This document shows, in pieces, positions 39,785 to 60,790 of a stretch of DNA of 64,000 nucleotides. Positions within the stretch are counted from its first letter, which is position 1, and each line of letters begins with the position of its first letter. The position numbers and the translations under genes are program-made. The DNA is taken from contig NZ_WELI01000001.1 of assembly GCF_009184635.1 (NCBI RefSeq), positions 124,001 through 188,000 on the forward strand. The letters run 5' to 3'. Source of the stretch: Rudanella paleaurantiibacter (GTDB lineage: Bacteria > Bacteroidota > Bacteroidia > Cytophagales > Spirosomataceae). The notes under the pieces were generated by a model, which was not told the DNA's origin, made no database searches, and saw only the letters and a list, made by a program, of their open reading frames with translations.

Positions 39785-39796
39785 CCGACCCAGGCC

Positions 39797-41254
39797 ATGT
39801 GTAATTCAACAACAACGGGCGAAATCTCGACTTTCGGGTGGGATACAGCTTTTGCTGTGCGTATTGAAAACGTGAATGCCGCTATTGTGAGCCAGAAGTC
39901 GTCTCCGGCGGGCTTCAGCTTTACGGACCCGGCCGACGCACAGGTACACTGCTCGGGTACGTTTGGAGACTGGCAGGTGGTACGTGGGGGCGATGGCAGC
40001 GGGGTGAATGTGCAACTGCCGCTCCTGAACATCAGCGGGCAAATGAAAGACAACGATGGGTATGTGCCGTACACCTGCGCGGGAGCTTCTATCATCGTGA
40101 CGGTTCGGCTGACGTATTTTGATACGGGACAGCCCAATGAGCAAAATCTGAAGGTAAAACCAACCAGCGATACCCCCGACGTGCCGGTAGTAGAACTCTA
40201 CTCGGCCGATTTTTCGCAACACCCGGTGCAGCCAAGTTATGCTTTGTACGCCATTCAGGCGGCTGTAATGAACTGGTGCGCCGAAAATCTGGCCGATTTT
40301 GAGCACGTCTTTTCGGTGATCGACATCAACGATGAAGCCGATACCGGCGCTTGGTCGTTTCTGAAACCAACGGCTGTGTCGTACGCCTACGTGGATGGTG
40401 AAACCGACGCCGACGCGTTTCTGGGGGTTCTGGCCATGACCACCGGCAGTCCGTCGGGCGGGCTACAGCAGGTACTCGATACCCGCATTGTACAGGCATC
40501 TGAAGAGGGAGCTTTCTGTATTTCGCGGGGGCTGTTGCTGAGTAAGCTCATTTTGCCCAATCTGATGGCTCTGTGGCCCAACCTACAGGCGAGCCAGATT
40601 TCGGTGCTCGACGACTGCATCAAGCTCAACCCCAACCAGTCGGTCGATTTGCCGCAGACCGAGTATCAGGGCAATACCTACACGCCCCAGCTTAAGCAGT
40701 TTACGCTGTCTATTGAAGGACAACAGGTGACTATCGACGCCTACACCGAAACCGATGTGCAGGATGGCGTTACGGCCTGGTGCCGCAATGTAGCCCAGTA
40801 CACCCTGGTGAAAAGTACGAACAAAAGCGGCCAGACAACCCTCGCGTATAAGCAACTGGGTGAGCCTCAAACAAGCAATGGCCACTACATTGCCGAGTGG
40901 GTCCAGATCACCGATGCGATTCTGGCCGTTGTGCTCGGCGTGGCTTTGGCGGCTTTGGCCGTTGTGACCGGTGGGGCGGCTGTACCCATTATTGCCGTGA
41001 TTGGTGCCCTGATTGTGGGAGCGGTTGCCCTGTCGCCCACGATTGATGGGATGATTCAGAACAACGACGCTCCCGCCATCGACCTGTTGCAGGAAAATAT
41101 CTACGCGCCCATTGTATGGACCGATAGTCAGGCGTTTGCCGTCAGTAGCGTCGACCTGAACGGGTCGCTGCGGCTGGGTGGTGCCCTCGGGTTCAGTGCC
41201 TTGCGGCAGATACTGGCGAACCAACAACCCCTAAACGCGCTACAAGCATGTTAA
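39797..41254 (+). CDS. P47/OrfX-like TULIP-family protein, paralogue 3
   Basis: 485 residues. The N-terminal motif Gly14-Trp15-Asp16 in FGWDTAFAVRIENVNAAIVS is followed by CSGTFGDWQVVRGGDGSGVN. The region LLLSKLILPNLMALWPNLQA matches the equivalent MKNLLLPALPSAM block of paralogue 1. A long hydrophobic segment (ILAVVLGVALAALAVVTGGA and continuing, about 375-410) precedes the common C-terminal motif FAVSSVDLNGSLRLGGAL, the clearest version of the terminal P47-type signature. The gene begins 12 nt after paralogue 2 and overlaps paralogue 4 by 7 nt, so expression is tightly coupled. Paralogues 1 and 3 form the second subgroup. Lipid ligand unknown. Confidence 0.8.
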   Translation: MCNSTTTGEISTFGWDTAFAVRIENVNAAIVSQKSSPAGFSFTDPADAQVHCSGTFGDWQVVRGGDGSGVNVQLPLLNISGQMKDNDGYVPYTCAGASIIVTVRLTYFDTGQPNEQNLKVKPTSDTPDVPVVELYSADFSQHPVQPSYALYAIQAAVMNWCAENLADFEHVFSVIDINDEADTGAWSFLKPTAVSYAYVDGETDADAFLGVLAMTTGSPSGGLQQVLDTRIVQASEEGAFCISRGLLLSKLILPNLMALWPNLQASQISVLDDCIKLNPNQSVDLPQTEYQGNTYTPQLKQFTLSIEGQQVTIDAYTETDVQDGVTAWCRNVAQYTLVKSTNKSGQTTLAYKQLGEPQTSNGHYIAEWVQITDAILAVVLGVALAALAVVTGGAAVPIIAVIGALIVGAVALSPTIDGMIQNNDAPAIDLLQENIYAPIVWTDSQAFAVSSVDLNGSLRLGGALGFSALRQILANQQPLNALQAC

Positions 41255-43114: not shown

Positions 43115-43840
43115 ATGCAGGGCACCATTCTTCATTACGATTCTCTCACGGGCTGTGGCCTCCTTCGCGTTGATGCCCATCGGCGCGACGACCACCCTAT
43201 TTTGTTTCGGCAGAACCAGTTGATCGACGCCCGCTCTGTGAAAGCGGGGCAGCGTATCTCGGTGAGTGGCTCAGGAGCAGGACTAACCATTGTGACCCGG
43301 TCCGGCGAGACCCGGTCCGGCGAGACCCGACCATCGGATGCCATCCCTGACCAGTACGAGGAGTTGCTGGATGCCGAACCGGTAACGTATCTGGATGCCA
43401 AACCCGTCATTCCACGCGCACAACCTGTTTATGACCAGACCGCTTACACCACCGGTTCAGGGCCGGTTGCGCCTGCATCGGGTGGGTTGTACAACTGGCC
43501 GGGTACGCTGGTGGCAGCGGCCGCCTTTGGGTTGCTGCTGGCGGCAGGGCAGGGCTACAAACCCGAGAGCCGGGTCGAGAAGAACGTGCCGCTGATCAAC
43601 TCGATCTGGGGCATGGTGGCGGCTGCGCTGCTCGTGATGACCACCTACTGGCAGGCCGTGGGTATGTCGCGGGGGCGGGTACGCTCGGCCGTGTGGGGCG
43701 TGGCCATTTGCTCAATAATGGCGTATCTGTTGCAGGGTTGCAGCGGATTTGTGGCCGATGGCGCGGCTCAGTGGTACATTTACGCCCTCATTGTGTTATT
43801 TCTGATTGTCTATATATTGCCGTATCGAGTACGATTTTGA
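43115..43840 (+). CDS. Membrane protein with N-terminal OB/cold-shock-like domain
   Basis: 241-residue protein starting at ATG 43115 (a TTG one codon earlier also fits). Residues 1-60 (QGTILHYDSLTGCGLLRVDA, HPILFRQNQLIDARSVKAGQ, RISV) have the layout of a cold-shock/S1-type OB fold. Next is a linker with an in-frame RSGET tandem repeat and proline-rich stretch, then three to four TM helices (NWPGTLVAAAAFGLLLAAGQ; SIWGMVAAALLVMTTYW; AVWGVAICSIMAYLLQG; WYIYALIVLFLIVYILPY). The fusion of an OB-like domain to a membrane anchor is not one I can name. It stands between the P47-like array and the tubulin/actin-like operon and could belong to either. Confidence 0.65.
   Translation: MQGTILHYDSLTGCGLLRVDAHRRDDHPILFRQNQLIDARSVKAGQRISVSGSGAGLTIVTRSGETRSGETRPSDAIPDQYEELLDAEPVTYLDAKPVIPRAQPVYDQTAYTTGSGPVAPASGGLYNWPGTLVAAAAFGLLLAAGQGYKPESRVEKNVPLINSIWGMVAAALLVMTTYWQAVGMSRGRVRSAVWGVAICSIMAYLLQGCSGFVADGAAQWYIYALIVLFLIVYILPYRVRF
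43294..43330 (+). repeat. 15-bp tandem repeat inside the OB/TM gene
   Basis: GACCCGGTCCGGCGA occurs twice in tandem (43294-43308 and 43309-43323) plus a partial third copy. In frame, it encodes a repeated RSGET in the linker, so copy-number change would keep the frame. Confidence 0.85.
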
Positions 43841-43932
43841 GTACAGTGGAGTGGTACTCCGCTGGGCCGTTAGGCCAAAAAAATAGTCATGTAATTGGCC
43901 TGGCGGCCCAGCGGAGTACCACTCCACTGTAC
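43841..43932. repeat. Near-perfect 38-bp inverted repeat
   Basis: Arm 43841-43878 (starts GTACAGTGGAGTGGTACTCC) pairs with 43895-43932 over 38 nt with two mismatches, both wobble-compatible; loop 16 nt, A-rich. It starts at the base after the upstream stop codon and ends 12 nt before the next ATG. It is the most stable stem visible in the window. Function could be terminator, attenuator or mRNA-stability element. Confidence 0.9.
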
Positions 43933-43944
43933 ATTAAGAACACT

Positions 43945-45228
43945 ATGCCTACTTTGCGAATAATACCGATTGCTTTACTTGCTTTCTCGATCCTCTTTTC
44001 TTCCTGTGGAGGGGGGGGGAAGCGCAAGCCCAAAGATGAGGCTACCAAACCTGCCCAGAAAGCGGCAGGCATTGGCCGTATTCATTTCTTTCTGGAAACC
44101 TCAGCCAGTATGGGAGGCTACCTTAAGGGAGCCACCACGTTTAAAGATGTGGTGTCGGAAGTAGTCAATAAAAGCAATCAGATTGCTCCCGTTTCGGTGT
44201 ACACCATCACCGATAAGCCGCAGCCGTATCAGGGTGGGGTAGGGCCGTTTGTGGAGGGACTGGCTACCACGCCCTTAGCCAATGGCAAAAGCTCGAAACT
44301 GCACACCATTTTTGGGCAGGTAGGGGCCAAAGCCACCGGCAATGATGTAGCCGTGCTGGTGTCAGACTGTATCCTGTCGTTTCCCGACGCCGACATCAAG
44401 CGTGACCCCGAAATTAACCGCAACAACGCGTCGAGTGTCCTGAAAAACCAGATCAACGATCAGTTTGCGAGCCTGAGCCGCAAGGGAATATCGGCTACGG
44501 TATATGCCTACAATTCGGCCTTCAATGGTACGTATTACGATTACCAAAACAAGAAATCGCAGCTTAATGGCGAGCAGCGGCCGTTTTATATCTGGGTGAT
44601 CGGCAAGCAATCGCTCGTGGCCGATTTCGATCGGCAGCTGCTGGAGCGCCTGAGCGAACGCCCGGCTCAGCAGCTTAGTTTTGGCTCGGGCGATGGGCTG
44701 AAAAAGTACGAACTGTTTTTCGGCCTGAACAAAAAAGGCGACTGGCGCGCTGAGCGGGGCAACGTGACCGAAATCAAATTTGGCCGCAAAGCCGAGCCGG
44801 CGGAGTTTGCCATCGGCCTCGATCTGGCCGGGCTGCCCGCCTACGCGCAGGCTCCGGATTATCTGAAAGAGAATCTGGTGATTAAGGCCGACAATGCCAC
44901 GCTCAAGCTCGTGAACGTGCAACGGCGCGAAAACGTGAACACCACCAAACGCATGACCGACCGCGAGCAACAGCTACTGGCCCGGAACTCGCACGTGCTG
45001 ACCTTTAAAATCGATGATCTGTTCGACGATGAAGCCACGGTGAACGTGCGGATGCCTGTTCGGTTCGATACGTGGTACCAAACCGACTGGTCGACGATGG
45101 ATGACCGCACCGAGGCCGGTCGGCGGAAGAAGACGTTTGCGCTCGTTCATCTCATGAACGGCGTCCGCGAAGCCTATCAGACCGGCACTAACGATTTTGT
45201 CAACTTTACATTTAAACTCGAAAAATAG
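43945..45228 (+). CDS. Lipoprotein with vWA-like domain
   Basis: 427-residue protein. The ATG at 43945 gives MPTLRIIPIALLAFSILFSS-Cys21, a clear lipoprotein signal followed by GGGGKRKPKDE. A longer frame from 43693 would run back through the hairpin and the upstream gene and is rejected. Residues about 45-220 look like a von Willebrand A fold: IHFFLETSASMGGYL has Glu51-Thr-Ser53-Ala-Ser55 where the MIDAS motif is DxSxS (Glu replaces Asp), and VAVLVSDCILSF holds Asp141 at the second metal position. The rest is beta-rich, with paired strands ending VRMPVRFDTWYQTD. vWA proteins are reported partners of one tubulin-like family, fitting the gene two positions downstream. Confidence 0.75.
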   Translation: MPTLRIIPIALLAFSILFSSCGGGGKRKPKDEATKPAQKAAGIGRIHFFLETSASMGGYLKGATTFKDVVSEVVNKSNQIAPVSVYTITDKPQPYQGGVGPFVEGLATTPLANGKSSKLHTIFGQVGAKATGNDVAVLVSDCILSFPDADIKRDPEINRNNASSVLKNQINDQFASLSRKGISATVYAYNSAFNGTYYDYQNKKSQLNGEQRPFYIWVIGKQSLVADFDRQLLERLSERPAQQLSFGSGDGLKKYELFFGLNKKGDWRAERGNVTEIKFGRKAEPAEFAIGLDLAGLPAYAQAPDYLKENLVIKADNATLKLVNVQRRENVNTTKRMTDREQQLLARNSHVLTFKIDDLFDDEATVNVRMPVRFDTWYQTDWSTMDDRTEAGRRKKTFALVHLMNGVREAYQTGTNDFVNFTFKLEK

Positions 45229-45231
45229 CCA

Positions 45232-45310
45232 ACGCGTAATGATGAATGCGTAACGCGTAATTGCTTGCGCCAGCCCATTATGCATTACGCATTATTCATT
45301 ACACATTCAT
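45232..45310. repeat. Word-built inverted repeat (GCGTAATG type)
   Basis: Left arm 45232-45261 is made of GCGTAATG/GAATGCGTAA words. The right arm 45277-45310 has the complements CATTACGC and CATTATTCATTAC. It lies between the vWA-like lipoprotein stop and the ATG at 45318. Confidence 0.75.
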
Positions 45311-45317
45311 AAAAACC

Positions 45318-45692
45318 ATGTTTACTTCCCTATACGAACTCTGGCTGGGTCAGAACGACGACCCGATTTACGCAGAAACCATTTTCAACCCGGTCGGCCT
45401 GCTCACGCTGGTAGTAGCGTTTGTACTGGCGGCCATTTTTTACCTGGGTCTGGGCCGCTGGAAAGCCGTTTTCTACAAAGTGGGGCCGTGGGTGGTCACG
45501 CTGATTGTGGCGGCTTTGTTTGGCTATGCATATGCCCTGAGCTATGCCCTCGACCAAACCGGTGCCGACGAATCGGACGCGTATATGCAGGGGTTTGGTG
45601 GGGTAAATGCCCTGTACGCCGTACTGTACTTCGTCCTCTTTTCGTTTTTACTGAAGCGTTTCTCGATTTACGCCCGGCGGACACCGGTTTAA
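45318..45692 (+). CDS. Small three-TM membrane protein in the tubulin/actin-like operon
   Basis: 124-residue protein starting MFTSLYELWLGQNDDPIYAE. Three TM helices are clear: VGLLTLVVAFVLAAIFYLGL, VGPWVVTLIVAALFGYAYAL, and VNALYAVLYFVLFSFLLKRF. The polar loop between TM2 and TM3 is acidic (DQTGADESDAYMQGFGG). No family recognised. Its position between the vWA-like lipoprotein and the tubulin-like gene suggests a membrane anchor for the complex (inference). The ATG at 45318 is preferred to an in-frame start at 45261, which lies in the inverted repeat. Confidence 0.75.
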   Translation: MFTSLYELWLGQNDDPIYAETIFNPVGLLTLVVAFVLAAIFYLGLGRWKAVFYKVGPWVVTLIVAALFGYAYALSYALDQTGADESDAYMQGFGGVNALYAVLYFVLFSFLLKRFSIYARRTPV

Positions 45693-45699
45693 AAGTAGA

Positions 45700-45789
45700 T
45701 AGGAGTGAGGAGGTAGGAGCGAGTAGGGCTGACGCAACGTTGCTTTCGCCGGACGGCTCCTAGCTCCTCACTCCTAGCTCCTCACTCCT
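45700..45789. repeat. Word-built inverted repeat (TAGGAGTGAGGAG type)
   Basis: Arm 45700-45720 reads TAGGAGTGAGGAGGTAGGAG. The right side, 45754-45789, holds two tandem copies of its complement (CTCCTAGCTCCTCACTCCT pattern). Middle segment about 33 nt. It ends 7 nt before the ATG of the tubulin-like gene (45797). Confidence 0.8.
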
Positions 45790-45796
45790 TCAAAGT

Positions 45797-47275
45797 ATGA
45801 AACTATTCCTTTTCGGCATCGGCGGAACCGGTGCCCGCGTATTACGCTCGCTGACCATGATGTTGGCGGCCGGGGCCAAAACCCCCGCTGACCTGACCAT
45901 TGTACCGATTCTGCTCGATATGGATATGCAGAATGGCGATACCGAACGCAGCCTGCGGGTGGTCGACCTGTACCGCACGATCCGCCGGGGCGCGTACGAA
46001 GGGCCTACCGGTTCGCAGGGCCAAAAAACCTTTTTTGCCACGCCCTTGCAGCCTCTCGGCACCCTACAGGCCGAAAACGCGCAGGAACGGCTAGGCGATT
46101 CGGTGATGCCCAAGCTGACCGATCACGAGGGTACGTTCGAGGAATTTTTGCAGGTGAGCAGCATGGACGATACCGACCGAGAACTGCTTAAACTGCTGTA
46201 CGATAACTCGGCCAAGCCAACCACGGCTGAGCTGAAGCTGAACCTGTCGGTGGGTTTCAAAGGGAATCCCAACATCGGGAGCGTGGTGTTCAATGCCCTC
46301 GAAGACTCGGCGGTGTACAAATACTTCACCGGGGCCTTTAACGATGCCACCGACCGGATTTTTATCATCAGCTCGATCTTTGGCGGCACCGGCTCGTCGG
46401 GGTTCCCGCAGTTGGTGAAACTGTTGCAGCAACCCAATCAGAAGCTACCCATTCGGAACGCCCGCAAAGGAGCCGTGACCGTGATGCCCTACTTCGCGCT
46501 CGAAGACAATACCAATAGCTCGATTGACCAGAACCGGTTTCTGTCGAAAACCAAAGCGGCCCTGAGTTACTACCAGACGCAAGTGCACCTCGACGCCCTG
46601 TATTACATTGGCGATCAGGCCGGTGGTAAGCTGTACCCGAACGTAGAGGGCGGTGCGCAGCAGGTCAACAACGCTCACGTGGTGGAGATGCTCGCGGCTG
46701 CGGCCGTGCTCGATTTTGCCCGGCGGCCCGCCGATGAGTTTGGGGGGGGCAAGCAGCATTACGAATTTGGGGTGAAGCGGAACGACCGCACCCTCGACTT
46801 GCCCCACTTCTACGACCGTACCTACAACGACTTGCTCGAACCGCTCATCCGGTTTGCGTACGCCACCAAATTTTACACCGATTTCCTGCCCGGTCATCTG
46901 ACCGAAGCTTTTGCCCGCAACCTGAACCTGCGGCAGGACATCACCACCAACTCGTTTTACACGGCCCTGCAAAACTTTATGGGTGTGCATTTTCGGGGCT
47001 GGCTGGCCGAAATGGCACAGAATGACCGGGCCTTCGCGCCGTTCGATCTGAACGCTGATTTTAACTCGATGGTCCGCTCGAAGCAGATTGAAACGGGGTT
47101 CTTCAAGAAAGGCATCAGTGAGGGTTTTCTGCGCGATCAGGCCGGCGAGGTCGAAAACAAGTTGCAAAAAAGCTTCCCCCAGAACGAAGCCCGTTTCATG
47201 CAGATGCTCATTGAGGTAGCCGACCGTTGCCGCGAAAAATTAGAAACAGTAAACCGACAATTAGCTGACAGTTAA
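45797..47275 (+). CDS. Tubulin/FtsZ-superfamily GTPase-like protein
   Basis: 492-residue protein of the tubulin-like (Tubulin_2/FtsZ-like) group. The N-terminal nucleotide-binding glycines are Gly7, Gly9, Gly10 and Gly12 in FLFGIGGTGARVLRSLTMML. The tubulin signature T4 loop is Gly196 to Gly202, GGTGSSG, in SIFGGTGSSGFPQLVKLL, the hallmark of this superfamily. Residues VPILLDMDMQNGD form the next strand-loop. The protein is longer than FtsZ and lacks an FtsZ-type C-terminal peptide. Comparative-genomic work has described such divergent tubulin-like families in operons with vWA proteins and proposed membrane remodelling. Here the vWA-like lipoprotein is two genes upstream and an actin-like ATPase is next downstream. 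Confidence 0.82.
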   Translation: MKLFLFGIGGTGARVLRSLTMMLAAGAKTPADLTIVPILLDMDMQNGDTERSLRVVDLYRTIRRGAYEGPTGSQGQKTFFATPLQPLGTLQAENAQERLGDSVMPKLTDHEGTFEEFLQVSSMDDTDRELLKLLYDNSAKPTTAELKLNLSVGFKGNPNIGSVVFNALEDSAVYKYFTGAFNDATDRIFIISSIFGGTGSSGFPQLVKLLQQPNQKLPIRNARKGAVTVMPYFALEDNTNSSIDQNRFLSKTKAALSYYQTQVHLDALYYIGDQAGGKLYPNVEGGAQQVNNAHVVEMLAAAAVLDFARRPADEFGGGKQHYEFGVKRNDRTLDLPHFYDRTYNDLLEPLIRFAYATKFYTDFLPGHLTEAFARNLNLRQDITTNSFYTALQNFMGVHFRGWLAEMAQNDRAFAPFDLNADFNSMVRSKQIETGFFKKGISEGFLRDQAGEVENKLQKSFPQNEARFMQMLIEVADRCREKLETVNRQLADS

Positions 47276-47370
47276 TGAATAATGCAGAATGTATAATGAA
47301 TAGTGCTCTGGCTGAGCGCCTGTTCACCATTCACCCCATTATACATTAGTCATTATCCATTATCCATTAA
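47271..47370. repeat. Word-built inverted repeat (AATGTATAATG type)
   Basis: Left arm 47271-47305 consists of TAATGAATAATG, AATGTATAATGAATAG words and includes the stop codon of the tubulin-like gene. Right arm 47328-47370 has the complements CATTATACATT, CATTATCCATTATCC. It ends 6 nt before the next ATG. Confidence 0.75.
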
Positions 47371-47376
47371 GAAGTT

Positions 47377-50300
47377 ATGCCACATATCCTTCGCATTGAT
47401 AAAGACCCGAATGTGGGTCAGCAGGACCATCAGGACTGGACCCAGAGCCGGGGCGGCCTGACCGGCAACCGCATTGAACACATTCCCGACACGCTCACGG
47501 GTGGTAGTGGCTCGGCCTCGAAAGCAGGCACGTCGATTCCGTCGCCGTTTGCCCGGCTGTATCTGTTCGATACGGCGTTTCGGATGGTTAAAAATGACCT
47601 CAACCCCCGCGAGCACTCGCTGTATCACGTGCTGGTGTCGCACTGCCTCGACCTGCTCGAACTGTTGTTTCAGGGTGGCCCGCGCAATACCGACATCACG
47701 TACCGGGTCTGGAACAAAGGCGAACGGCTCGAAGCCCTCCGGCAGCGGGCCGGTGCGCCGGGCTCGGGACAGCGGCACGCGCACGCGATTCTGGCCAAAG
47801 CCCTCGAACTGGATATGCAGGGCGACCTGGGTACGCTCCAGCAGATTACCATGATCTACTACAAGGGGGCATTGCTCGGCGGAACGTCGCCCCTGTCGCT
47901 TGTATTTACCTCACCCAACTGGGAGCAGGAGCGACAGAATCGGTTTATTGAACCGCCCAAAAGCACCAATGGTCGCACCCTGTTCCGCAATGAATACGTA
48001 CCGCTGGCTGACCGCGATATTGCCTTTGTGACCTATCTGGCACGCATTTATCGGGAGCAGAATGGACTGCTGACGGGTGGTTTCCGGGAGTTCTTGTATC
48101 GGATATTCGACGATAACACCTCGCCCCTCCGTACCGAAGCCGACAAAACACTGGGCAGCTTCGACCCGATCACGGTGGGGGGCGAAACCAACGCGACCCT
48201 TCAGGTGGTGCCGGGGCTGGTTCTCTACGGCGTTCGCGAAGCCGACGTGCTCGAAGATATTGAGCGCGAAAGTGATTTTGTGATGCAGCCCACGGTTGAT
48301 TATTACGCGGCCGAAACCTACGCCAACGGGGCCCCGACCAAAGTACGCAAGCCACTGGCGTTGGCCTCGCGCATGGAGGTGGCCGGGAAATACGTAAAAA
48401 ATACCGACTGGAATCCGCGTACCGAGGTCTTGCCCGTTCACCTGAACGACCTCAGCCGCGATGGCCTCCTGGCCGACCGGTACCTGCCCGGCGTGGATAA
48501 TGTACGGTACCCGTTTGTATCGACCGACGACTTTCTGGAGGATTTTCTCGTCCGAATGCCGTACAAGATCAACAACGAGCGTTTCCAGACCGGCATGCGC
48601 GATGGGGCTGATTGCCATTTCCTGTTGCCCGTACGGAAAGAGTATTTCAACTTTTTCACGCCCGATGACCTCGACCGGTATCTGACTATTCAGATTGACG
48701 CTAACATGGTAACGGCCACGCTCGAAGTACCCGTGAAGAACAACCGTCGGGTTACGTTCCGCAAAGCCTACGATCTGCGCGACCCCAATACCGTCATCGA
48801 GTTTCGGGCCGATCTGGCGTTTTTCCCGTTCTACCGGGTTACCCGCCCCGATTTGCAGGACCTGAACAATTACACGGTCATGCTGGCCGATGGCAGCGGG
48901 GTAGAGTACGGTTTCCGGCCCACGGGCGTGCATTTTTACCAGTTTCCGAACCTGATTCGGAAAGCGCCCGTACAGGTGAACACGCCCGAAGCACGGAGCC
49001 TTAAATCGCCGTTGGCCCCGGCTTCGTACTACTACAAGGTACCGCAGGCCTTCGACCTGATGGAGGTGCAGCTCAACTACGGGGGCGACACGTACCGGGG
49101 GCTTATTCTGCCCTCGTTCCGGGTTATCAACCAAAGTTACCGGGCCTTTACGTTTGCCATCGACTTTGGTACGTCGAACACGCACGTTGCCTATCTGGAA
49201 AACGATGGCGTAGCGGGTAATGCCGAACCGCAACCCCTGACCGTAGCCGACGATGCTGAGCTACAGGTAGTTCTGCTCAACAAGCCCTACAACGGGCCCG
49301 AAGCCCAGACCACCTATCAGCGGTACGCCCTGAAGAGCGGATTTGGTACCTTCGATGAGATGGAGCCGCTGATTCGGCGGGAGTTTGTGCCGCCCGTTAT
49401 TAGTGGCGATGGCCGGGCGGGCTCGCCGTTTGCGTTTCCATTGCGCACCACGGTGTACGAGAAAAAAGGCATTCAGGACGGGGGCGATTATCTGTTCAGC
49501 AAGCTCAATCTGGGCTTCAATATCGACCTGGAGCAATCGGCAAGTGGCGATGTGAACCGCTACGTGACCAACCTGAAATGGTTGTTTGAGAACCAGCCTA
49601 AAGATGCCCTCAACCGGCCGCGGGTACGGGCGTTTTTCGAGACGTTACTCCTGCTGATCCGCAACAAGATTATTCTGAACGAGGGCGACATTACTAAGAC
49701 TAAAGTGGTTTGGCTGGCACCGTCGAGTATGCGCCGGGGCACCCGCAACGGGCTTGTTGAAGAGTGGCAGAAGGCCTTTGAGCAGGCGTTCAGAGGCAGC
49801 GGTCAGTTTGTGTACGAACCCATTTCGGAGTCGGTAGCGCCGTATTTCTACCTCATGAAAAAAGGCGTGCTGCCCACGTCCGATGCCGTCAACATCGACA
49901 TCGGGGGCGGTACCTCCGATATTATGTTGTTTGTGCAGCAGCAACGGCGGTATCTGAATACGTCGTTCCGGTTTGCAGCCAACGATATTTGGGGGGGCGG
50001 CCTCAACGAACAGGGCTATCCGTCGTACCGCAAAGACAACGGTTTTATCCAGAACTACCTGCTGTACAAACAGCGGAACCCCATGCCGTACCGGGCTGAG
50101 GATGGTACGCTGGAGTCGTTTTTGCAGAAAGACGAAATGACCGCCGAAGACGTGGTAAGCCTGCTGTTCAAGCAGGATGCGCACTTCCGGTTTACGCAGT
50201 CGATGAAAGATTTCCGGCCGGCGCTTCGGATGGTGCTTTACCTGCACTACGCGTCGATTATCTACCACCTCACGCAGTTGCTCGAAGCCAACGGCCTTCA

Positions 50301-50922
50301 GTTGCCGCGCTTCCTGACCTTTACCGGCCGGGGCTCGCAGTACCTGAACCTGCTCGGTTCTACGGCCGACCTGACGGAGTTTACCCAACTGCTGTTTCAG
50401 GCGTACTCGAACCAGCCGGCACCGGGCGGTTTCCGAATTGTGTTTACCGACAAGCCGAAGGAAACCACGGCCAATGGCGCCGTGCTGTATCAGCAGCAAC
50501 AGGATACCAACGTTGGGCAAAGCGTACGCCCTGAGCCGGTTACGTACTGGGGTGAGGCCCGGAAAACCGACGAGGCACCGGTCGATTTTGTGTACAATAT
50601 CACCAGCGCTGAGGAAGCCCGCTTGCGGACCGATTTCCACGAAGCGGTGATCGAAAACGTGCGGGTGTTTCTGGAAAAGACCCTGAAAAACCGCACCATC
50701 GCGTCGTTCCTGGCCGATTTCGATATTCAGCGGCCCGACCAGTATTACGATTTTCTGGTGGGTAACGACCCGGCGTCGCGCCATAATGTGCTGTGGGATA
50801 GCTATCTGCTGGGCAGGTTGGCGATTGAGCGCGACCCCGACGCCCGTTTGTCGGAGACGTTCTTCTTCCTGCCGCTCAAACACGCGTTGTACGAGTTGTC
50901 GAAACATATTCAGCAGGGCTAA
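47377..50922 (+). CDS. Large protein with actin/Hsp70-like ATPase domain
   Basis: 1181-residue cytosolic protein. The first 590 residues are a novel-looking region without a family I can name: Arg/Asp-rich, alpha/beta, with FARLYLFDTAFRMVKNDLNP, HLNDLSRDGLLADRYLPGVD and FFPFYRVTRPDLQDLN. From about 590 an ASKHA ATPase is evident: phosphate-1 motif FAIDFGTSNTHVAYLEN with Asp596, and phosphate-2 motif NIDIGGGTSDIMLF with Asp841-Ile-Gly-Gly-Gly. The adenosine-type motif follows as FLTFTGRGSQYLNLLGS at about 980. The DFGTSNT form is typical of Hsp70/MreB relatives in conflict or cytoskeletal systems. It lies 102 nt after the tubulin-like gene, and the next gene is only 15 nt away. Confidence 0.8.
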   Translation: MPHILRIDKDPNVGQQDHQDWTQSRGGLTGNRIEHIPDTLTGGSGSASKAGTSIPSPFARLYLFDTAFRMVKNDLNPREHSLYHVLVSHCLDLLELLFQGGPRNTDITYRVWNKGERLEALRQRAGAPGSGQRHAHAILAKALELDMQGDLGTLQQITMIYYKGALLGGTSPLSLVFTSPNWEQERQNRFIEPPKSTNGRTLFRNEYVPLADRDIAFVTYLARIYREQNGLLTGGFREFLYRIFDDNTSPLRTEADKTLGSFDPITVGGETNATLQVVPGLVLYGVREADVLEDIERESDFVMQPTVDYYAAETYANGAPTKVRKPLALASRMEVAGKYVKNTDWNPRTEVLPVHLNDLSRDGLLADRYLPGVDNVRYPFVSTDDFLEDFLVRMPYKINNERFQTGMRDGADCHFLLPVRKEYFNFFTPDDLDRYLTIQIDANMVTATLEVPVKNNRRVTFRKAYDLRDPNTVIEFRADLAFFPFYRVTRPDLQDLNNYTVMLADGSGVEYGFRPTGVHFYQFPNLIRKAPVQVNTPEARSLKSPLAPASYYYKVPQAFDLMEVQLNYGGDTYRGLILPSFRVINQSYRAFTFAIDFGTSNTHVAYLENDGVAGNAEPQPLTVADDAELQVVLLNKPYNGPEAQTTYQRYALKSGFGTFDEMEPLIRREFVPPVISGDGRAGSPFAFPLRTTVYEKKGIQDGGDYLFSKLNLGFNIDLEQSASGDVNRYVTNLKWLFENQPKDALNRPRVRAFFETLLLLIRNKIILNEGDITKTKVVWLAPSSMRRGTRNGLVEEWQKAFEQAFRGSGQFVYEPISESVAPYFYLMKKGVLPTSDAVNIDIGGGTSDIMLFVQQQRRYLNTSFRFAANDIWGGGLNEQGYPSYRKDNGFIQNYLLYKQRNPMPYRAEDGTLESFLQKDEMTAEDVVSLLFKQDAHFRFTQSMKDFRPALRMVLYLHYASIIYHLTQLLEANGLQLPRFLTFTGRGSQYLNLLGSTADLTEFTQLLFQAYSNQPAPGGFRIVFTDKPKETTANGAVLYQQQQDTNVGQSVRPEPVTYWGEARKTDEAPVDFVYNITSAEEARLRTDFHEAVIENVRVFLEKTLKNRTIASFLADFDIQRPDQYYDFLVGNDPASRHNVLWDSYLLGRLAIERDPDARLSETFFFLPLKHALYELSKHIQQG

Positions 50923-50937
50923 CCACCGCGAACCCAC

Positions 50938-52338
50938 ATGAAAACCTTTCTAACTCTCTTTCTTTTCCCGCTGACTACACTCGCCCAAACCCTGACCGCC
51001 GATCAGGTGGGCGACCGGGCCTTCAAAATGGCCAAAGCAACGGTCGAGTTTTTGGCTACCGACTCCAAAACGTACGGGTATCCGGCCAAAAAATCGTGCC
51101 CCGATTGTGTAAGTTACCCGAGCCTGAAAACGTTTATTCGGGAACAGAAACTCACCAAAGCTGATGAGCTTGTGGGTGGGGTAGAGCGCTGGGTTGCCAA
51201 TCCGGCTACAGCAGCCAAAGACCCGGCTACGGCCCTCGCTGAGCTACGTACCGATCTGCTCAACCGCGTCACCAGTGGAACCGAGCGGCAACACCGGCGG
51301 AGCTTGCCGTCTTTTGCTTCGTACGAAGCGCAGATGACCGAGCTGTCGGGCGGGCAGTCGGCACCGGCAACGCTGGCTATGAACGCCCCTGCTCAGGGTG
51401 GAGACCCCGCCCAGGGTGGTGTCACAGAAATCGACACGGCGTATGCCGACGCCGATGACATTACCCCCGTGAGTGCTACGCAACAGGCTGACAACGGTTG
51501 GCTCTCCAAAAGCGGATTGGCCCTGGTTTTGTCGTTGCTGGGTCTGGCGTTGGCGGGTTGGGTATTTTTTATTCACCGCCGGTCGGGCGGGTCGGGGGCA
51601 GCTCCTAAGCCTCTGGATGCGGCTACCGACAAGCAACTGGCGCAGCTAAGCGATGATCTGTTTCACCTGAAAGGCGAGCGGAATCGGGTGCAGGATGCCA
51701 ACCGGCGGCTCGAAGAACGAGTAGCTCAACTGGAAAGTCAGATTGCGGTGCTGCAAAAAGCGGTGGGCCTGCCAACGGGCATACCGGTGGTAGCGGCCCC
51801 GGCCACCAAAGAGCCTGTGCCTGCCCCGGCCCCCCGTGCTCAAATGCAGCAGGCCACAACAACGTCGGCCCCGGCACCTGCGCCCGCAGCCGACAATCGT
51901 CCGGTGAACCCGCCATCTCCGCAGAACCGGCCCCGTTCGGCGGCCCCCGCCCCGGCGCAGCCACCGGTGACCTCGGCCCCCGCAGCCGTGCCCCCGCAAC
52001 CAGCCCCGGCTCCGCCTGCCCCTACGCTCCTGTACGCGCGTACGGTAGACCTGGGCGACGGGTTCAGTGCCGACTCGCTGTCGGAGAAAACAAGCGAGCG
52101 CCCTATGATTTACCAGTTGCAGATACAGGCTCCCGGGCAGGCTACTTTCCGCGTTGCCGACGACCCGTACGCGCAGCGGCTCGCTCTGAGTGACCCGTAC
52201 TCGTACCTCAACGATGCCTGTGAGTACACCTCGCAACCTGCACCCAACAGCCGGATTCAGACTATCCAGCCGGGGCGGCTCGTTTTGCAGGGAAATAAAT
52301 GGCTCATTCAGGAAAAAGCGCAGATTGCGTTTAGCTGA
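50938..52338 (+). CDS. Signal-peptide/TM/coiled-coil protein at end of the tubulin/actin-like operon
   Basis: 466 residues. A signal peptide (MKTFLTLFLFPLTTLAQ) leads into a helical domain with CPDC and a Glu/Lys pattern (DQVGDRAFKMAKATVEFLAT) up to about 185. A single TM helix follows (GLALVLSLLGLALAGWVFFI, about 192-212), then a basic stretch and a coiled coil (FHLKGERNRVQDANRRLEER, to about 270). A long Pro/Ala-rich linker (about 280-360) leads to a C-terminal globular domain (TLLYARTVDLGDGFSADSLS; SRIQTIQPGRLVLQGNKWLI). The topology therefore gives a periplasmic N-domain and a cytosolic coiled coil and end domain, a good bridge between the envelope lipoprotein and the cytosolic filament-like proteins (inference). 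No named family. Confidence 0.72.
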   Translation: MKTFLTLFLFPLTTLAQTLTADQVGDRAFKMAKATVEFLATDSKTYGYPAKKSCPDCVSYPSLKTFIREQKLTKADELVGGVERWVANPATAAKDPATALAELRTDLLNRVTSGTERQHRRSLPSFASYEAQMTELSGGQSAPATLAMNAPAQGGDPAQGGVTEIDTAYADADDITPVSATQQADNGWLSKSGLALVLSLLGLALAGWVFFIHRRSGGSGAAPKPLDAATDKQLAQLSDDLFHLKGERNRVQDANRRLEERVAQLESQIAVLQKAVGLPTGIPVVAAPATKEPVPAPAPRAQMQQATTTSAPAPAPAADNRPVNPPSPQNRPRSAAPAPAQPPVTSAPAAVPPQPAPAPPAPTLLYARTVDLGDGFSADSLSEKTSERPMIYQLQIQAPGQATFRVADDPYAQRLALSDPYSYLNDACEYTSQPAPNSRIQTIQPGRLVLQGNKWLIQEKAQIAFS

Positions 52339-52597: not shown

Positions 52598-52945
52598 TTA
52601 ATTCAGGTTATGCGCTGACAGAGCCATTTGGCGGCAAGCTTCGGCACAACGGCGGCAGGCTTCGGCGCAGGCCCGGCAATGGTCTTCATCGTGTTGGCCA
52701 CACTCGGCCGCACAAGCCTCGCAGATATGGGCGCACAATTTGCACACGTCAGCGGCATGCGCACTGTTCGACGCCATAAACGAAACGGCCATCTGACACA
52801 CTTTGGCACAATCACGGTCGAGCCGAATACACGCAACCATGTGGTGTACGTGTTCTTCGCCTAAGCAGGCATCGGCACATTGGTCGCAGGCGAGGGCGCA
52901 GGCCTGACAGGCGTCTATACAATCCTGAACGTGTTGAGCAATCAT
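52598..52945 (-). CDS. Csp3-like cytosolic copper-storage protein
   Basis: 115-residue four-helix-bundle Cys-rich protein of the copper storage protein (Csp/DUF326) family. The sequence from ATG 52945 has 19 Cys, mostly in the CxxxC pattern down the helices (QDCIDACQACALACDQCADA; EDHCRACAEACRRCAEACRQ). Met and His residues near the bundle ends (EEHVHHMVACI) match the Csp mouth. No signal peptide, so it resembles the cytosolic Csp3 type, which stores Cu(I) with about this number of Cys. An upstream in-frame start at 53026 would add non-conserved residues. Monocistronic. Confidence 0.92.
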   Translation of the reverse strand: MIAQHVQDCIDACQACALACDQCADACLGEEHVHHMVACIRLDRDCAKVCQMAVSFMASNSAHAADVCKLCAHICEACAAECGQHDEDHCRACAEACRRCAEACRQMALSAHNLN

Positions 52946-53111
52946 AGCGTATAACGGTTTGTTTACCGCCTTAACCCGGTAGACTATTGAATGTTGGTCA
53001 ATTGCGATTACCCGGTCATTTTCCAAAAATTATGTACAGGTTCAGCCGGGCCTGGCTACTGACCGATTCCGCGAAATGAGTCTAAACAGGTACACACAAG
53101 GTGCCTGCTTT

Positions 53112-55613
53112 ATGAAAAAATGGCCTCGGTTCAACGTTACGTCGCCCAATGATCTGTATAACTTTTCGGCTAAACCGAGCGATACGCGTTCTGTTAGAGC
53201 GCTGATTGTGATTGGTTTGTTTTGGGTTGGGGCGTTTGTGTATGTGTACTTTCAGCGGGCCAACCGGGGGTATTCGTGGCTATTTGTGCTCCTGACTATC
53301 TCGGTTGTGTTCAAACTGCTTCGGCTCCTGCACGAATGGTACCATTACTGGAAGGTGGTACCGCCCGTTCGGCCGCCCGTAACCCGCACCTGGACCGTCG
53401 ATGTGCTGACCACGTATTGCCCCGGCGAGCCGCACGAGATGGTCATCAACACCTTGCAGGCTATTGAAGCCCTTACCTACCCGCACACTACCTACCTCTG
53501 CGACGAAGCCGACGACCCGTACCTGAAACAAGTGTGTGCCCAAATGGGCGTGCGGCACGTGACGCGTACCGACAAAACCGACGCCAAAGCGGGAAACATT
53601 AACAACGCCCTGCGCGAGGCTACCGGCGATATATGTCTCGTGATCGACCCCGACCATGTGCCGGTGCCTGATTTTCTCGATCACGTATTGCCGTATTTTG
53701 AAGACCCCAACATCGGGTTTGTGCAATGCACGCAGGCGTATTATAACCGCAAAGAAAGCGTGGTGGCCTTTGGCGCTACCGAGCAGACTTACAGCTTTTA
53801 TGGCCCCATGATGACCTGCATGGGGCAGTACGGTACCGCGCAGGCAATCGGGGCCAATTGTACGTTCCGGCGGGCCGCCCTCGACTCTGTCGGGGGGCAT
53901 GCCAACGGCCTTTCCGAAGATATGCACACGGCTATGCGGCTCCATGCCAAAGGCTGGCAGTCGGTGTATGTACCCCTGCCGCTTTCGTATGGTCTGGTGC
54001 CGGCTACGCTGTCGGCGTATTACAAACAGCAACTGAAATGGTCGCGCGGAACGTTTGAACTGCTCGTGACCACATTGCCACGGGTGTTTGGTGGGTTGTC
54101 GTGGCGACAAAAAATTCATTACCTGACCTTGCCCCTGTACTACCTGCTTGGGGTGGTGCAGCTCATCGACCTGCTGATTCCGATCTGTTCGCTGGTGATG
54201 ATGCGGTTGCCCATCAAGCTCGACCTGCTCTTATTTGCGATGGTCTATACCCCCCTGCTACTGACGGGGTTTCTGATTCGGCAATTTGCGCAGCGGTGGC
54301 TCATTGAGCGGCACGAAGCGGGTTTCCACCTGCTCGGCGGTATTCTGGCGGGCGGAACCTGGTGGGTGTACGTGCTCGGGTTTGTGTACACCCTGTTTCG
54401 GGTTCGGGTGCCCTATATTCCAACGCCTAAAGACGACCGCCCGCGCAATAACCGGGTCTTGGTTTTGCCTAACCTGCTCATGGTATTGGCTACGCTGGGG
54501 GCCATTGCCTACAGTATCTACTACTACGGCCGCTTTGCACTCAATAACACGTACGCACAGCTCATGATTGGGTTCGGGGTGATCAATGTGCTGATGCTGA
54601 GTGCCAATGTTCTGATTGGGCAGGAGCTGTTCTGGGCCCGGCTGGGCCACCGACTACAGGCCCTGTCGAGCGGAAACATGGCCGTTTGGCGCATGCGTAT
54701 TGCCGCCTGGAAAGTACGTTACGGGTTGTACTACTGGCTGCGGCTGTCGGCCATTCCGTTGGCGGGAGTTGTGCTGCTGCTCACCCTCGGCATGACCATG
54801 TACAGCTACCGAACCGAGATTATCCGGCCGACAATTGATATTCGGTATGCCAACACCCAGCCGTTTTACGTGGGCATGAACGGCATCACAAAGCGAACCT
54901 CAGTGCAACTGGCCGATTCGACTGCCTTTATCATACCGCAGTCGGTACGGTGGCTGACCGGGCCGGGTAGCCGTATCGACCAGCCCAACTGGCCGCGTGT
55001 GGCGGGGCAGATTCCGTTTTTGTCAATAGAGCCGGATGTTCGCTTAAAGCCCACAGAGCAACAGGTTGCCGGGTTTCTGAGTGGCATTGTGAACCGTCGG
55101 CACGATACCACCCTACTCGAATTTCTACGGGTTTCTAAAGCCTACGGCCGCCCGGTACTGGTTAGTTTTCTACCCCAGTTTGATAACCCCGACCGGCCGT
55201 GGGGCTCGCGTCGGGATACCACGTTGATTCTGTACCGCATGGCCTGGCAGCACATCGTTCATCTGGCCCGGCAACAGCGTGTGCATAATCTGGCCTGGGT
55301 CTGGTGCCCCTCGCGTCCGTCGAGCATCAGTGCGCACTATCCGGGCTCCGATTACGTACACTGGATTGGTCTGAGCGTGGTGAATAACCCCGACCGCGCC
55401 CCCGACGGCCGTAGTCATTCGTTTGCGGCCTTGTACCAACCCCTGCATACCACCATCAGGACCCATGCCGCCTACAGCATCCGGCAAAAACCGATTTTGC
55501 TCACCCATTTATATTCTACCGAACGAGGTCCCGCCGGTGCGAAGTGGCTCACTGAAGCGCAAAATCTGCTGCACGAGCGATACCCACAGATTCGGGGGAT
55601 ACTTTTTGAGTGA
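53112..55613 (+). CDS. Cellulose-synthase-like GT2 with degenerate GH26-like C-terminal domain
   Basis: 833 residues from ATG 53112 (MKKWPRFNVTSPNDLYNFSA); an ATG at 53076 gives 845. Two TM helices (about 30-75) precede a processive GT2 domain: CDEADDPYLKQVCAQM, VIDPDHVPVPDFLDHV, SEDMHTAMRLHAKGW and the exit motif QQLKWSRGTFELL (QxxRW variant with Lys). Further TM helices follow to about 585. The last 240 residues resemble a GH26 mannanase barrel: MAWQHIVHLARQQRVHNLAW, VWCPSRPS and YPGSDYVHWIGLSVV. However, the acid/base segment reads FLPQFDNPDRPWGS instead of the HEMNG-type, and the nucleophile segment is THLYSTE, so hydrolase activity is doubtful. Likely makes and binds a beta-glycan. Confidence 0.85.
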   Translation: MKKWPRFNVTSPNDLYNFSAKPSDTRSVRALIVIGLFWVGAFVYVYFQRANRGYSWLFVLLTISVVFKLLRLLHEWYHYWKVVPPVRPPVTRTWTVDVLTTYCPGEPHEMVINTLQAIEALTYPHTTYLCDEADDPYLKQVCAQMGVRHVTRTDKTDAKAGNINNALREATGDICLVIDPDHVPVPDFLDHVLPYFEDPNIGFVQCTQAYYNRKESVVAFGATEQTYSFYGPMMTCMGQYGTAQAIGANCTFRRAALDSVGGHANGLSEDMHTAMRLHAKGWQSVYVPLPLSYGLVPATLSAYYKQQLKWSRGTFELLVTTLPRVFGGLSWRQKIHYLTLPLYYLLGVVQLIDLLIPICSLVMMRLPIKLDLLLFAMVYTPLLLTGFLIRQFAQRWLIERHEAGFHLLGGILAGGTWWVYVLGFVYTLFRVRVPYIPTPKDDRPRNNRVLVLPNLLMVLATLGAIAYSIYYYGRFALNNTYAQLMIGFGVINVLMLSANVLIGQELFWARLGHRLQALSSGNMAVWRMRIAAWKVRYGLYYWLRLSAIPLAGVVLLLTLGMTMYSYRTEIIRPTIDIRYANTQPFYVGMNGITKRTSVQLADSTAFIIPQSVRWLTGPGSRIDQPNWPRVAGQIPFLSIEPDVRLKPTEQQVAGFLSGIVNRRHDTTLLEFLRVSKAYGRPVLVSFLPQFDNPDRPWGSRRDTTLILYRMAWQHIVHLARQQRVHNLAWVWCPSRPSSISAHYPGSDYVHWIGLSVVNNPDRAPDGRSHSFAALYQPLHTTIRTHAAYSIRQKPILLTHLYSTERGPAGAKWLTEAQNLLHERYPQIRGILFE

Positions 55614-55727
55614 GCCCCTGACGCTGACAGTCGCCGAATCTAAAACAGCTACCTGTGCCACTTACTTAGCAGTAACCGGGCGCGAATTGGCGCTTTGGCC
55701 AATAGGCAAACCGCCTAACTGTTGACC

Positions 55728-59228: not shown

Positions 59229-59401
59229 GAGTCAATGAGAATAGCGATTCTGATGTATTGACCCTCAGCAACGGGCGTCGTCACATTTCGGGAGTAAAGT
59301 TGTAAGCATTCCGCATAATTGTGTAAAAATAGGCGGGGTTGAGGCAGCGGGGCTTTCGGGGTGAGCGTGTCAAACGTGAGTAAACAATGCCGGGGCTTCG
59401 T

Positions 59402-59409
59402 TACTTTTG
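59402..59409 (+). promoter_or_regulatory. Candidate -7 box for the WG-type gene
   Basis: TACTTTTG matches TAnnTTTG and lies 13 nt before the ATG at 59423, implying a very short leader. The context TTACTTTTGTA is identical to 30490-30500. No -33 TTTG found. Confidence 0.35.
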
Positions 59410-59422
59410 TAGCCAGAAGAAC

Positions 59423-60790
59423 ATGGCAACATTACAGGAGCGTATTAAGGAAGAAATTGTTCTCCGGCGAGGACAGGTGAAAGAGCGCCATTGGCGGCAA
59501 ACTGGCTTGCCCGAGGAGGCCGCCCGTGAAGGCATTTCGGCCGAGGAGTTTCGCCGATTGGTCAACGAGGTGAGTCGGCAAATTAACTTTGAAAAGCTGG
59601 CCGACCTGCGCCGTCGGCTCGAAGATGCCCTGGCAGCTCCACCGCTCTACCAACTCCATCAGACCCAGACCGACGATTTTGTAGCCGAGGCCGAACGGAT
59701 GGGCTTGGGTAGTGTCTTTGTGCGTGACCGCTGGATTCCGCAACTGATTACCGATCTCAAACAAGTAGCCTCCGCAACAACCGAGGTGGTATCCCCGCCC
59801 CTGGTGGCACCCCCTGTGCCCGAAACGCCGGTAGCTCCAACGACAACTCCGCCCGTTGAGGCATCTGACCGCGATCCGGTGGCCCAACCAGACGTGGCCC
59901 GACCGAATGCGGCCCGACCCGATGATGCGGCAGCGGTGCGCGCGCGGGTCAAAACCATTCTGGATGAGTACGAGGGGCATATTACGGCCCGGGAGCTGCG
60001 TTTGTTGTTCCGGGCGATGCCGACCGACGAAAAAGTACTGGCAGAAGAGGTGCTGGCGTACCTGTCGGCTAATTTTTACGCGTCGGTGACGGAGCCCGCT
60101 GGGAATACCCTGTCCGAAAAGCTCCTGTCGACCGATTGGCGGCACCTAAGCTGGTGGGATAAAGAACCCGAGCCTGCTCCGGCCCCCGTGGTTGAGCCTG
60201 TTCGGGCGTACGTGCCCCCGACACCACCTCCGCAGCGTCCGGCACCAACGCCACCCCCGGCCCCGCGTCGGAGTTCGCTCTGGTCCGATGCGGGGGTTTG
60301 GGGTACTGTGTTTGCTGTTTCGGTAGTAATCATTTTGTACCTGCTGATTAAGCCCAATGCAAAGAACAGGAACACCGGGACCGACGAAGACCGCCCGGCC
60401 CGTTCGGAGCAGGTTGAAGAGACGCGCCCCTCAAAACGTAAACGCGAGAAAGCCAAACGGACATCCGAAGCGGTAACTTCCAACGAAAGTGAGGCTACCG
60501 ACGAACCCATGCGTGAGCCAAAGACGGCCCCTGAACCGGCTCCGACCGAGAAACCGGTTGTGGTCGAGGAGAGCAAGCCCGATAAGAAATACGATCAGGT
60601 GCTGGCAACAACCGGTGATTTTGGCGAACGCCCGGCCCGTTTGGGGCGTAAGTGGGGCCTTTGGCGCGACAACAACTGGATGATTTTTCCGATCTACGAC
60701 GATATTACCGTTTTCCGCGACGGTCGGGCTACCGTTGTGCGGAATGGCCGCACCTACGATATTGATGATAAAGGCAATCCGGTTGAGTAA
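59423..60790 (+). CDS. Membrane protein with WG-repeat-like C-terminus
   Basis: 455 residues from ATG 59423 (MATLQERIKEEIVLRRGQVK). The N-terminal 85 residues are charged helices (LVNEVSRQINFEKLADLRRR). A Pro/Ala-rich linker (about 140-180) is followed by a second helical domain (TILDEYEGHITARELRLLFR, AMPTDEKVLAEEVLAYLSAN). One TM helix (about 293-310; VFAVSVVIILYLLIK) precedes a highly charged linker (TRPSKRKREKAKRTSEA). The last 45 residues, KWGLWRDNNWMIFPIYDDIT and VFRDGRATVVRNGRTYDID, form a WG (KWG) repeat. The N-terminal helices face the cytosol if the TM is a single pass. Function unknown. Confidence 0.72.
   Translation: MATLQERIKEEIVLRRGQVKERHWRQTGLPEEAAREGISAEEFRRLVNEVSRQINFEKLADLRRRLEDALAAPPLYQLHQTQTDDFVAEAERMGLGSVFVRDRWIPQLITDLKQVASATTEVVSPPLVAPPVPETPVAPTTTPPVEASDRDPVAQPDVARPNAARPDDAAAVRARVKTILDEYEGHITARELRLLFRAMPTDEKVLAEEVLAYLSANFYASVTEPAGNTLSEKLLSTDWRHLSWWDKEPEPAPAPVVEPVRAYVPPTPPPQRPAPTPPPAPRRSSLWSDAGVWGTVFAVSVVIILYLLIKPNAKNRNTGTDEDRPARSEQVEETRPSKRKREKAKRTSEAVTSNESEATDEPMREPKTAPEPAPTEKPVVVEESKPDKKYDQVLATTGDFGERPARLGRKWGLWRDNNWMIFPIYDDITVFRDGRATVVRNGRTYDIDDKGNPVE

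Follow-up and report, generated by a model that had tools for sequence, protein, structure and literature searches.

A near-obligate tubulin-like/actin-like gene pair in a probable envelope-spanning system of Rudanella paleaurantiibacter and other Bacteroidota

What might a bacterium that carries canonical ftsA and ftsZ genes do with another pair of tubulin-like and actin-like genes, set among genes for a lipoprotein and membrane proteins? The question is raised by positions 43945-52338 of a 64,000-nucleotide stretch (the window) of Rudanella paleaurantiibacter (Bacteroidota, Spirosomataceae; contig NZ_WELI01000001.1, forward strand, positions 124,001 to 188,000), which lies on contig C12 of a 6.72-Mb genome, referred to below as G000. 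This locus probably encodes a little-known machine acting across the cell envelope. A first-pass annotation, made from the letters of the window, had described a set of five to six genes here. Its five open reading frames (ORFs) stand as it placed them, all on the plus strand, with gaps of 89, 104, 101, and 15 bp from the lipoprotein gene through the linker gene; the set itself is larger, the MotA/MotB-type genes of relatives and a gene at 59387 having been missed. In a Pfam scan, none of the five operon proteins scored over its family cut-off, and an NCBIfam scan of the core proteins gave nothing significant. The five features are:

43945..45228, plus strand: vWA-like lipoprotein of 427 amino acids (aa), with lipobox C21, an ExSxS motif (E51, S53, S55), and D141
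45318..45692, plus strand: protein of 124 aa with three predicted transmembrane (TM) segments, at a median offset of -490 bp from the tubulin-like gene across loci
45797..47275, plus strand: predicted tubulin-like GTPase of 492 aa, with T1 (GIGGTGAR) and T4 (FGGTGSSG) motifs and a helical C-terminal domain (AlphaFold2 model, fold searches, Tubulin_2 score)
47377..50922, plus strand: predicted actin/Hsp70-like ATPase of 1181 aa, with an N-terminal region of ~585 aa, an ATPase domain at ~588-1050, and a C-terminal extension (AlphaFold2 model, fold searches)
50938..52338, plus strand: TM/coiled-coil linker protein, with a signal-like N terminus, TM segment 189-207, a predicted coiled coil, a Pro/Ala linker, and a conserved C-terminal part

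Gene linkage was read in a set of 59 genomes, in 395 evenly drawn Bacteroidota genomes (both counts include the window genome), and in 80 named loci, which are the best 80 of 578 relatives, about half of them from Hymenobacter and all with Bacteroidota titles (other phyla may carry the set as well). Among the 59 genomes, the tubulin-like gene was found in 20 and the actin-like gene in 19, all within those 20, and the two are adjacent in 18 of the 19, including G035, where the pair spans contig ends. The vWA-like gene was also found in 19 genomes, with G015 holding a vWA-like match only and the G029 copy surfacing later by profile. In G040 the set is split, with the tubulin-like and vWA-like genes at 3.36 Mb, the actin-like, linker, and MotA-like genes at 3.60 Mb, and the MotB-like gene at 1.71 Mb. 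The actin-like profile matches 76 of the 80 named loci; where it does not, the genome has a match on another contig, which in one case is merely a 295-aa fragment. Thirteen of the 395 Bacteroidota genomes carry the tubulin-like gene, adjoined in 12 by the actin-like gene (11 by profile, G346 by reading of the locus). The thirteenth gene, in G451 (locus L163, C38:34000-52000), is broken by a stop codon and comes from a genome listed as 13% contaminated; the actin-like and linker genes were not found in this stretch, the vWA-like gene, the split tubulin-like gene, and truncated MotA-like and MotB-like genes are present, and the locus appears to be a decayed copy of the operon. The first-pass annotation had staked the pairing on the scarcity of tubulin-like homologues without an actin-like partner. 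At 76 of 80 loci and 12 of 13 genes, the neighborhood survey upholds it, and the tubulin-like and actin-like genes form a near-obligate partnership.

Matches to the actin-like profile occur in 315 genomes of the phylum sample, but to count all of these as carriers would be wrong: apart from the true ones, the frames listed (down to an E value of about 1.2e-4) are ~270-635 aa long, cover the ATP-motif region only, and look FtsA/DnaK-like. Among the matches listed for the tubulin-negative genomes of the 395, none is of the size of the actin-like protein. Pairwise distances within the two families are correlated at r 0.985 over 90 loci, duplicates among them, which fits shared descent and by itself is no proof of contact.

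Across loci, the usual order is vWA-like, 3-TM, tubulin-like, actin-like, linker, and profiles of these families match 75, 62, 78, 76, and 71 of the 80 loci, respectively; the figure of 78 is an artefact, the tubulin-like ORFs of L128 and L132 having been dropped by an overlap filter though tblastn matched them. This linkage bears out the earlier idea that the genes form a single conserved unit in which membrane proteins and a lipoprotein take part. Culturable genera that have the set are Hymenobacter, Dyadobacter, Larkinella, Spirosoma, and Chitinophaga, and, of the named records that the tubulin-like scan matched, those nearest to the window are "Flavobacterium sp. SUN052" and a Rudanella metagenome-assembled genome (MAG), at 94-95% identity in the tubulin-like protein. 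The first-round loci and the 80 named loci share genomes, so that the 99 tubulin-like proteins considered below represent 94 distinct sequences and the 93 actin-like proteins represent 86.

The two genes can also be joined into one. In L093, from a Cytophagales MAG, a single 1623-aa ORF matches both the tubulin-like and the actin-like profiles, and at its seam, which contains no stop codon and no ATG, the usual C-terminal end of the tubulin-like protein runs into the usual N-terminal start of the actin-like protein; this is beyond what one sequencing error makes. Such a fusion suggests that in the separate proteins these two ends lie close together.

The GGTGSSG tubulin signature seen in the first pass holds up: the GGTG loop falls at residues 196-199 of a protein for which a tubulin/FtsZ fold is predicted. 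An AlphaFold2 model built from 45 sequences (predicted local distance difference test [pLDDT] 86.9, predicted template modeling score [pTM] 0.91) was matched by VIA-align to CetZ with Z 16.8 over 197 residues (root mean square deviation [rmsd] 2.7) and to tubulins and FtsZ with Z 15-16; the best Foldseek E value was 3.3e-4. Matches to CetZ, tubulin, and FtsZ cover approximately the first 350 residues, mostly ending near residue 350, and the rest of the model is helical, its longest helix being no more than 28 residues and forming no extended coiled coil. The score against Pfam Tubulin_2 (PF13809) is 26.7 bits (E = 4.3e-6), 0.3 short of the cut-off of 27; 31 of 45 family members match this profile at E ≤ 0.001, and none of the 59 genomes had a Tubulin_2 match above the cut-off. 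There was no FtsZ_C Pfam match. The T4 GTP loop is retained in all 99 tubulin-like proteins and the T1 pattern in 95, so that a loss of GTP-binding residues in most homologues, the other observation on which the first-pass annotation would have yielded, did not appear. On the evidence of the model, the protein is best placed in the tubulin/FtsZ superfamily and not as a member of FtsZl1, because the model lacks a long coiled coil.

Likewise, the DFGTSNT and DIGGGTSD motifs (at about residues 596 and 841) fall within a predicted actin/Hsp70 domain, as had been proposed. In the AlphaFold2 model of the actin-like protein (41 sequences; pLDDT 83.9, pTM 0.72), the ATPase domain is matched by ParM (Z 11.7, 267 residues, rmsd 4.6), with which DnaK is tied, MamK (Z 10.9, 289 residues, rmsd 4.0), and MreB (Z ~10); a fold search of the model against viral models returned Hsp70-type proteins. 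Both phosphate motifs, phosphate-1 and phosphate-2, are present in all 93 actin-like homologues of at least 1000 aa, and the adenosine pattern is present in 83. FtsA is the commonest Pfam match in this family, reached by 11 of 41 members at E ≤ 0.01; the window protein itself scores 12.5 bits for FtsA (E = 0.2) against a cut-off of 31.8. SrfB of the SrfABC system (PF07520), also a large protein, is encoded in a three-gene operon. Apart from this likeness in size and operon setting, an SrfB identity was rejected, the window protein having no PF07520 match at E ≤ 1 and the matches in 19 genomes being ~20 residues long, with 0 of 19 above the cut-off.

A second, distant branch of the tubulin-like family, with A-S after the GGTG loop, is represented by four loci (L160, L161, L162, and L063). 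Three of them adjoin an actin-like gene of 1166-1301 aa, and L063 is without one; the phosphate and adenosine motifs in the actin-like proteins of L160 to L162 are variant yet recognizable. In L162, a weak MotB-like match lies upstream of the vWA-like gene.

In many relatives the linker gene is followed by genes of a motor type, MotA-like in 38 and MotB-like in 35 of the 80 loci (8 and 7, respectively, of the 21 first-round loci). Most of the 38 are from Hymenobacter (mostly Hymenobacteraceae), a genus that fills much of the list of the best 80. MotB-like genes were detected in 9 of the 59 genomes, all of which have the tubulin-actin pair, and in none of the 39 genomes that lack the tubulin-like gene. 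The ion-site Asp is present in all 41 MotB-like proteins (35 by pattern and 6 by eye; a stricter pattern finds 40), and D17 is invariant in 15 aligned sequences. The MotB-like protein of L122 matches the PADLOC profile ZorB1 (E = 3.1e-12) and PDB chain 8vvn (E = 6.9e-6), listed in PMC11890865 as Shewanella ZorAB. Its MotA-like partner, which has a long C-terminal tail, matches PADLOC ZorA (E = 4.5e-6) and falls just below the PF01618 cut-off (21.5 against 22.9 bits, E = 2.1e-4); elsewhere, the PF01618 E value is 0.052 in L103, and there was no match in L143. As judged from these matches, the motor-type pair of the relatives appears closest to ZorAB of the Zorya system. It resembles the ZorAB/MotA5-MotB2 type in its long-tailed MotA-like protein and in a MotB-like protein that has the ion-site Asp and a weak resemblance to OmpA (PMC11890865), and differs from Zorya in sitting beside tubulin-like and actin-like genes. 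No Zorya effector (ZorC/ZorD, ZorE, ZorF/ZorG) was found among the six window proteins and six proteins of relatives scanned, some neighbors having been left unscanned.

The remaining members point to the envelope. The lipoprotein had been called a vWA protein with a MIDAS-like motif: its lipobox and its ExSxS and D141 motifs hold, with C21, E51, S53, and D141 invariant among 19 homologues and the E.S.S[MV] pattern present in 84 of 95, but there was no vWA match in Pfam or PDB, so the "vWA" label rests on motifs. TM prediction agrees with three TM segments in the 124-aa protein, whose start is more likely ATG 45318 than the listed TTG 45261 because relatives start at that position. The linker has the one TM segment expected of it, and its coiled coil is proposed from a reading of the sequence and from weak coiled-coil profile matches at ~228-275; its conserved columns lie chiefly in the C-terminal part. 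Two further genes flank the five:

43115..43840, plus strand: upstream membrane protein (f16) with at least three TM segments, found in 13 loci including the window, all on the same strand, at a median offset of -2.5 kb from the tubulin-like gene
59387..60790, plus strand: candidate displaced last member (f13 family) of 467 aa, with one TM segment (303-321) and a C-terminal WG repeat

The f16 protein (TM segments 159-177, 197-215, and 218-236, numbered on the TTG form; start ATG 43115 preferred to TTG 43112) is likely a lineage-specific accessory member. The WG repeat of the f13 protein is below the cut-off (E = 0.0011). At other loci of the family, relatives of this protein are encoded directly 3' of the linker gene, the window copy lying ~7 kb further, and hhalign aligns the N-terminal ~110 aa of the window protein with the f12 family (E = 4.2e-6, probability 87%), whose gene follows the linker gene in loci of Dyadobacter, Chitinophaga, and Pedobacter. 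The gene at 59387-60790 is thus a probable displaced last member of the operon, as far as these comparisons can tell.

How does this set compare with described systems? The ftsA-ftsZ pair is the textbook operon of tubulin and actin relatives, and contig C23 of the window genome carries both canonical genes, FtsA scoring 134 bits and FtsZ 136 bits, with 32 bp between them. The pair described here resembles it in being neighboring genes for a tubulin relative and an actin relative tied to the membrane, but has a different tubulin-like C-terminal part, a far larger actin-like protein, and a patchy distribution, and coexists with the canonical genes. The one experimental hint as to function comes from Synechocystis, where interruption of each of sll0445 (Tubulin_2), sll0446 (FtsA domain), and sll0447 (DivIC domain) impaired phototaxis (PMC9880817). 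That cluster likewise joins a Tubulin_2 protein, an actin-like (FtsA-domain) protein, and a DivIC-domain protein; it belongs to a cyanobacterium, its reported interactions are with pilus and photosystem proteins, and the likeness to the window lies in its domains. In calling the pairing of tubulin-like and actin-like genes in one operon unusual, the first-pass annotation passed over both ftsA-ftsZ, present in the window genome too, and sll0445-sll0446, and in that general form the remark is not supported.

Membrane systems of vWA, FtsZl1, and OmpA proteins were proposed by Makarova and Koonin in 2010 (PMC2875224), and the link that the first-pass annotation drew to vWA-associated FtsZl1 is reasonable: here, too, a divergent tubulin-like protein with a GGTG loop and a helical C terminus is encoded beside a vWA-like protein and membrane proteins, with OmpA-type proteins in several genomes. 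The link is weakened by the score just under the Tubulin_2 cut-off and by the absence from the model of the long coiled coil that most FtsZl1 proteins have (PMC2875224). The cited text of that paper names no actin-like partner or MotA, although the unnamed associated families of its Additional File 6 could include one, and, unlike in the FtsZl1 systems it describes, neither a protein kinase nor a P-loop GTPase was recognized among the genes of the window locus. In a 2023 study, Tubulin_2 proteins are treated as a separate, FtsZ-like group (PMC9871819). The function of FtsZl1/Tubulin_2-type proteins has been open since the 2010 description, and an actin-like partner, a fusion, and an ion-motor pair turn the general idea of membrane remodeling into specific questions. 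Among the open-access papers listed by the literature searches, none presents the set in Bacteroidota in its title or abstract, and the constancy of the pairing, the fusion, and the linked ZorAB-like genes seem to be new.

We favor, with moderate confidence, one envelope-spanning machine that is built on an FtsZ/FtsA-like core and put to an accessory use, most likely in positioning or operating an envelope or surface complex, not in division. Its tubulin-like GTPase and actin-like ATPase would lie on the cytoplasmic side of the inner membrane and work much as FtsZ and FtsA do; we infer that they bind directly, the former assembling in a GTP-dependent way and the latter acting as an ATP-dependent adaptor for that assembly, as FtsA does for FtsZ. 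The linker would tie the pair to the membrane and periplasm and carry a signal or force through the membrane, with the 3-TM protein beside it and the lipoprotein, outside the inner membrane, at the far end. Relatives that bear the motor genes could perhaps couple ion flow to the cytoskeletal pair; the window genome keeps an f12/f13-type TM protein. Division is unlikely to be the job of the pair because canonical FtsA and FtsZ are also encoded in the window genome, and surface motility, appendage placement, or polarity would be the leading guess. A bolder version, which we consider possible but doubtful, is that GTP-driven tubulin-type, ATP-driven actin-type, and, in many lineages, ion-driven MotA5-MotB2-type parts work together as a single coupled device that crosses the inner membrane and peptidoglycan and signals to, or exerts a pull on, the outer lipoprotein; if so, the motor-less window lineage would represent a nucleotide-only form. 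We know of no described system that couples tubulin-type, actin-type, and ion-motor parts, and none coupling all three was found among the open-access papers searched.

Several observations weigh against an FtsZ/FtsA-like envelope machine. There is one clear exception to the pairing, G037, where a distant tubulin-like gene stands without an actin-like one. The nearest folds of the ATPase domain are ParM, DnaK, MamK, and MreB, with no FtsA among the matches listed, and, judging from the model, the helical region past about residue 350 makes filament formation of the usual type uncertain. The fusion is a single case from a MAG, in which the contig ends at the end of the ORF, without a vWA-like gene, and the same genome holds, on another contig, a 103-aa fragment matching the C-terminal end of the actin-like protein. 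No operon-type MotB match was obtained in the window genome, where no MotA-like search was made. Finally, these Bacteroidota are not, to our knowledge, users of type IV pili, and Sll0446 is only a putative homologue of the actin-like protein.

The two NTPases could be switches or chaperones instead of polymers, the Hsp70/actin-like protein loading the tubulin-like GTPase onto a membrane complex or releasing it; its ATPase domain does match Hsp70 as well as MreB and ParM, it has a large extra N-terminal region, and the C-terminal part of the tubulin-like protein is helical. We nevertheless think this unlikely: the tubulin-like protein retains its tubulin-type N-terminal fold and its GTP loop, and no single ATPase match outranks ParM, a filament protein, although DnaK ties with it. 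A second, accessory division or cell-shape system would be suggested by the parallel between these gene types and FtsZ, FtsA, and a TM coiled-coil divisome protein (an FtsZ/FtsA/DivIC-like trio) and by FtsA being the commonest Pfam match of the actin-like family. The patchy presence of the set, the canonical FtsA and FtsZ encoded elsewhere in the genome, and the lack of an FtsZ_C match in the tubulin-like protein make such a role improbable, and divisomes do not usually include a MotB-type motor or a lipoprotein.

The motor genes raise the possibility of anti-phage defense of the Zorya type, in which stress on the envelope would be sensed by the MotA/MotB-like pair and answered by a response module made up of the tubulin-like and actin-like proteins. 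The matches to ZorA, ZorB, and 8vvn and a patchy distribution (13 of 395 genomes) are what one would expect of it. However, PADLOC gave no match at E ≤ 1 for five of the proteins (tubulin-like, actin-like, vWA-like, 3-TM, and upstream TM) and only LmuB (0.019) for the linker, no effector was recognized among the proteins scanned, and motor genes are absent from the operon in 42 of the 80 loci, besides the lack of a MotB match in the window genome. Moreover, the downstream neighbors are common to several genera of the bacterial family, so the locus there looks stable and not mobile, and the distances of the pair co-vary as under vertical descent. Defense of this kind is, in our estimation, a poor candidate, and an FtsZ/FtsA-like machine of the envelope remains the reading that we prefer. 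A mobile or viral origin was likewise rejected: a scan of viral contigs with a window protein gave no relative, the phage collection not being searched, and plasmids yielded only a 1.77-Mb replicon of Prevotella sp. F0039.

Upstream of the set, four tandem genes (36593-42915) belong to PF06597, the family of Clostridium P-47 (E = 6e-70 to 6e-15). These P47/TULIP genes were considered as members of the set and set aside: the window shares them with the sister genome G001, and the stretches (9-20 kb) read in G002, G003, and the remaining first-round loci lack them. Between the linker gene and the displaced f13 gene, 52598-59228 encodes a DUF326 protein, a glycosyltransferase with a GH26-like tail, and two glycoside hydrolase-like proteins. 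A scan for promoters and terminators returned 6 promoter-like sites (shuffles 4.9, standard deviation 2.0) and 18 terminator-like sites (shuffles 12.4, standard deviation 3.2). The four long gaps of the operon are filled by large inverted repeats with arms of 26-38 nucleotides (43841-43932, 45231-45307, 45694-45782, and 47273-47362), each starting at the stop codon of a gene and ending shortly 5' of the next start, and four more, with arms of 27-49 nucleotides, separate long ORFs in other parts of the window (9827-9913, 23335-23467, 24846-24966, and 27717-27787). The hairpin sequence varies from gap to gap and, at the same gap, among close relatives (the window, L045, and L065), and in L066 the tubulin-actin gap is merely 6 bp, which together point to a fast turnover of these gap fillers.

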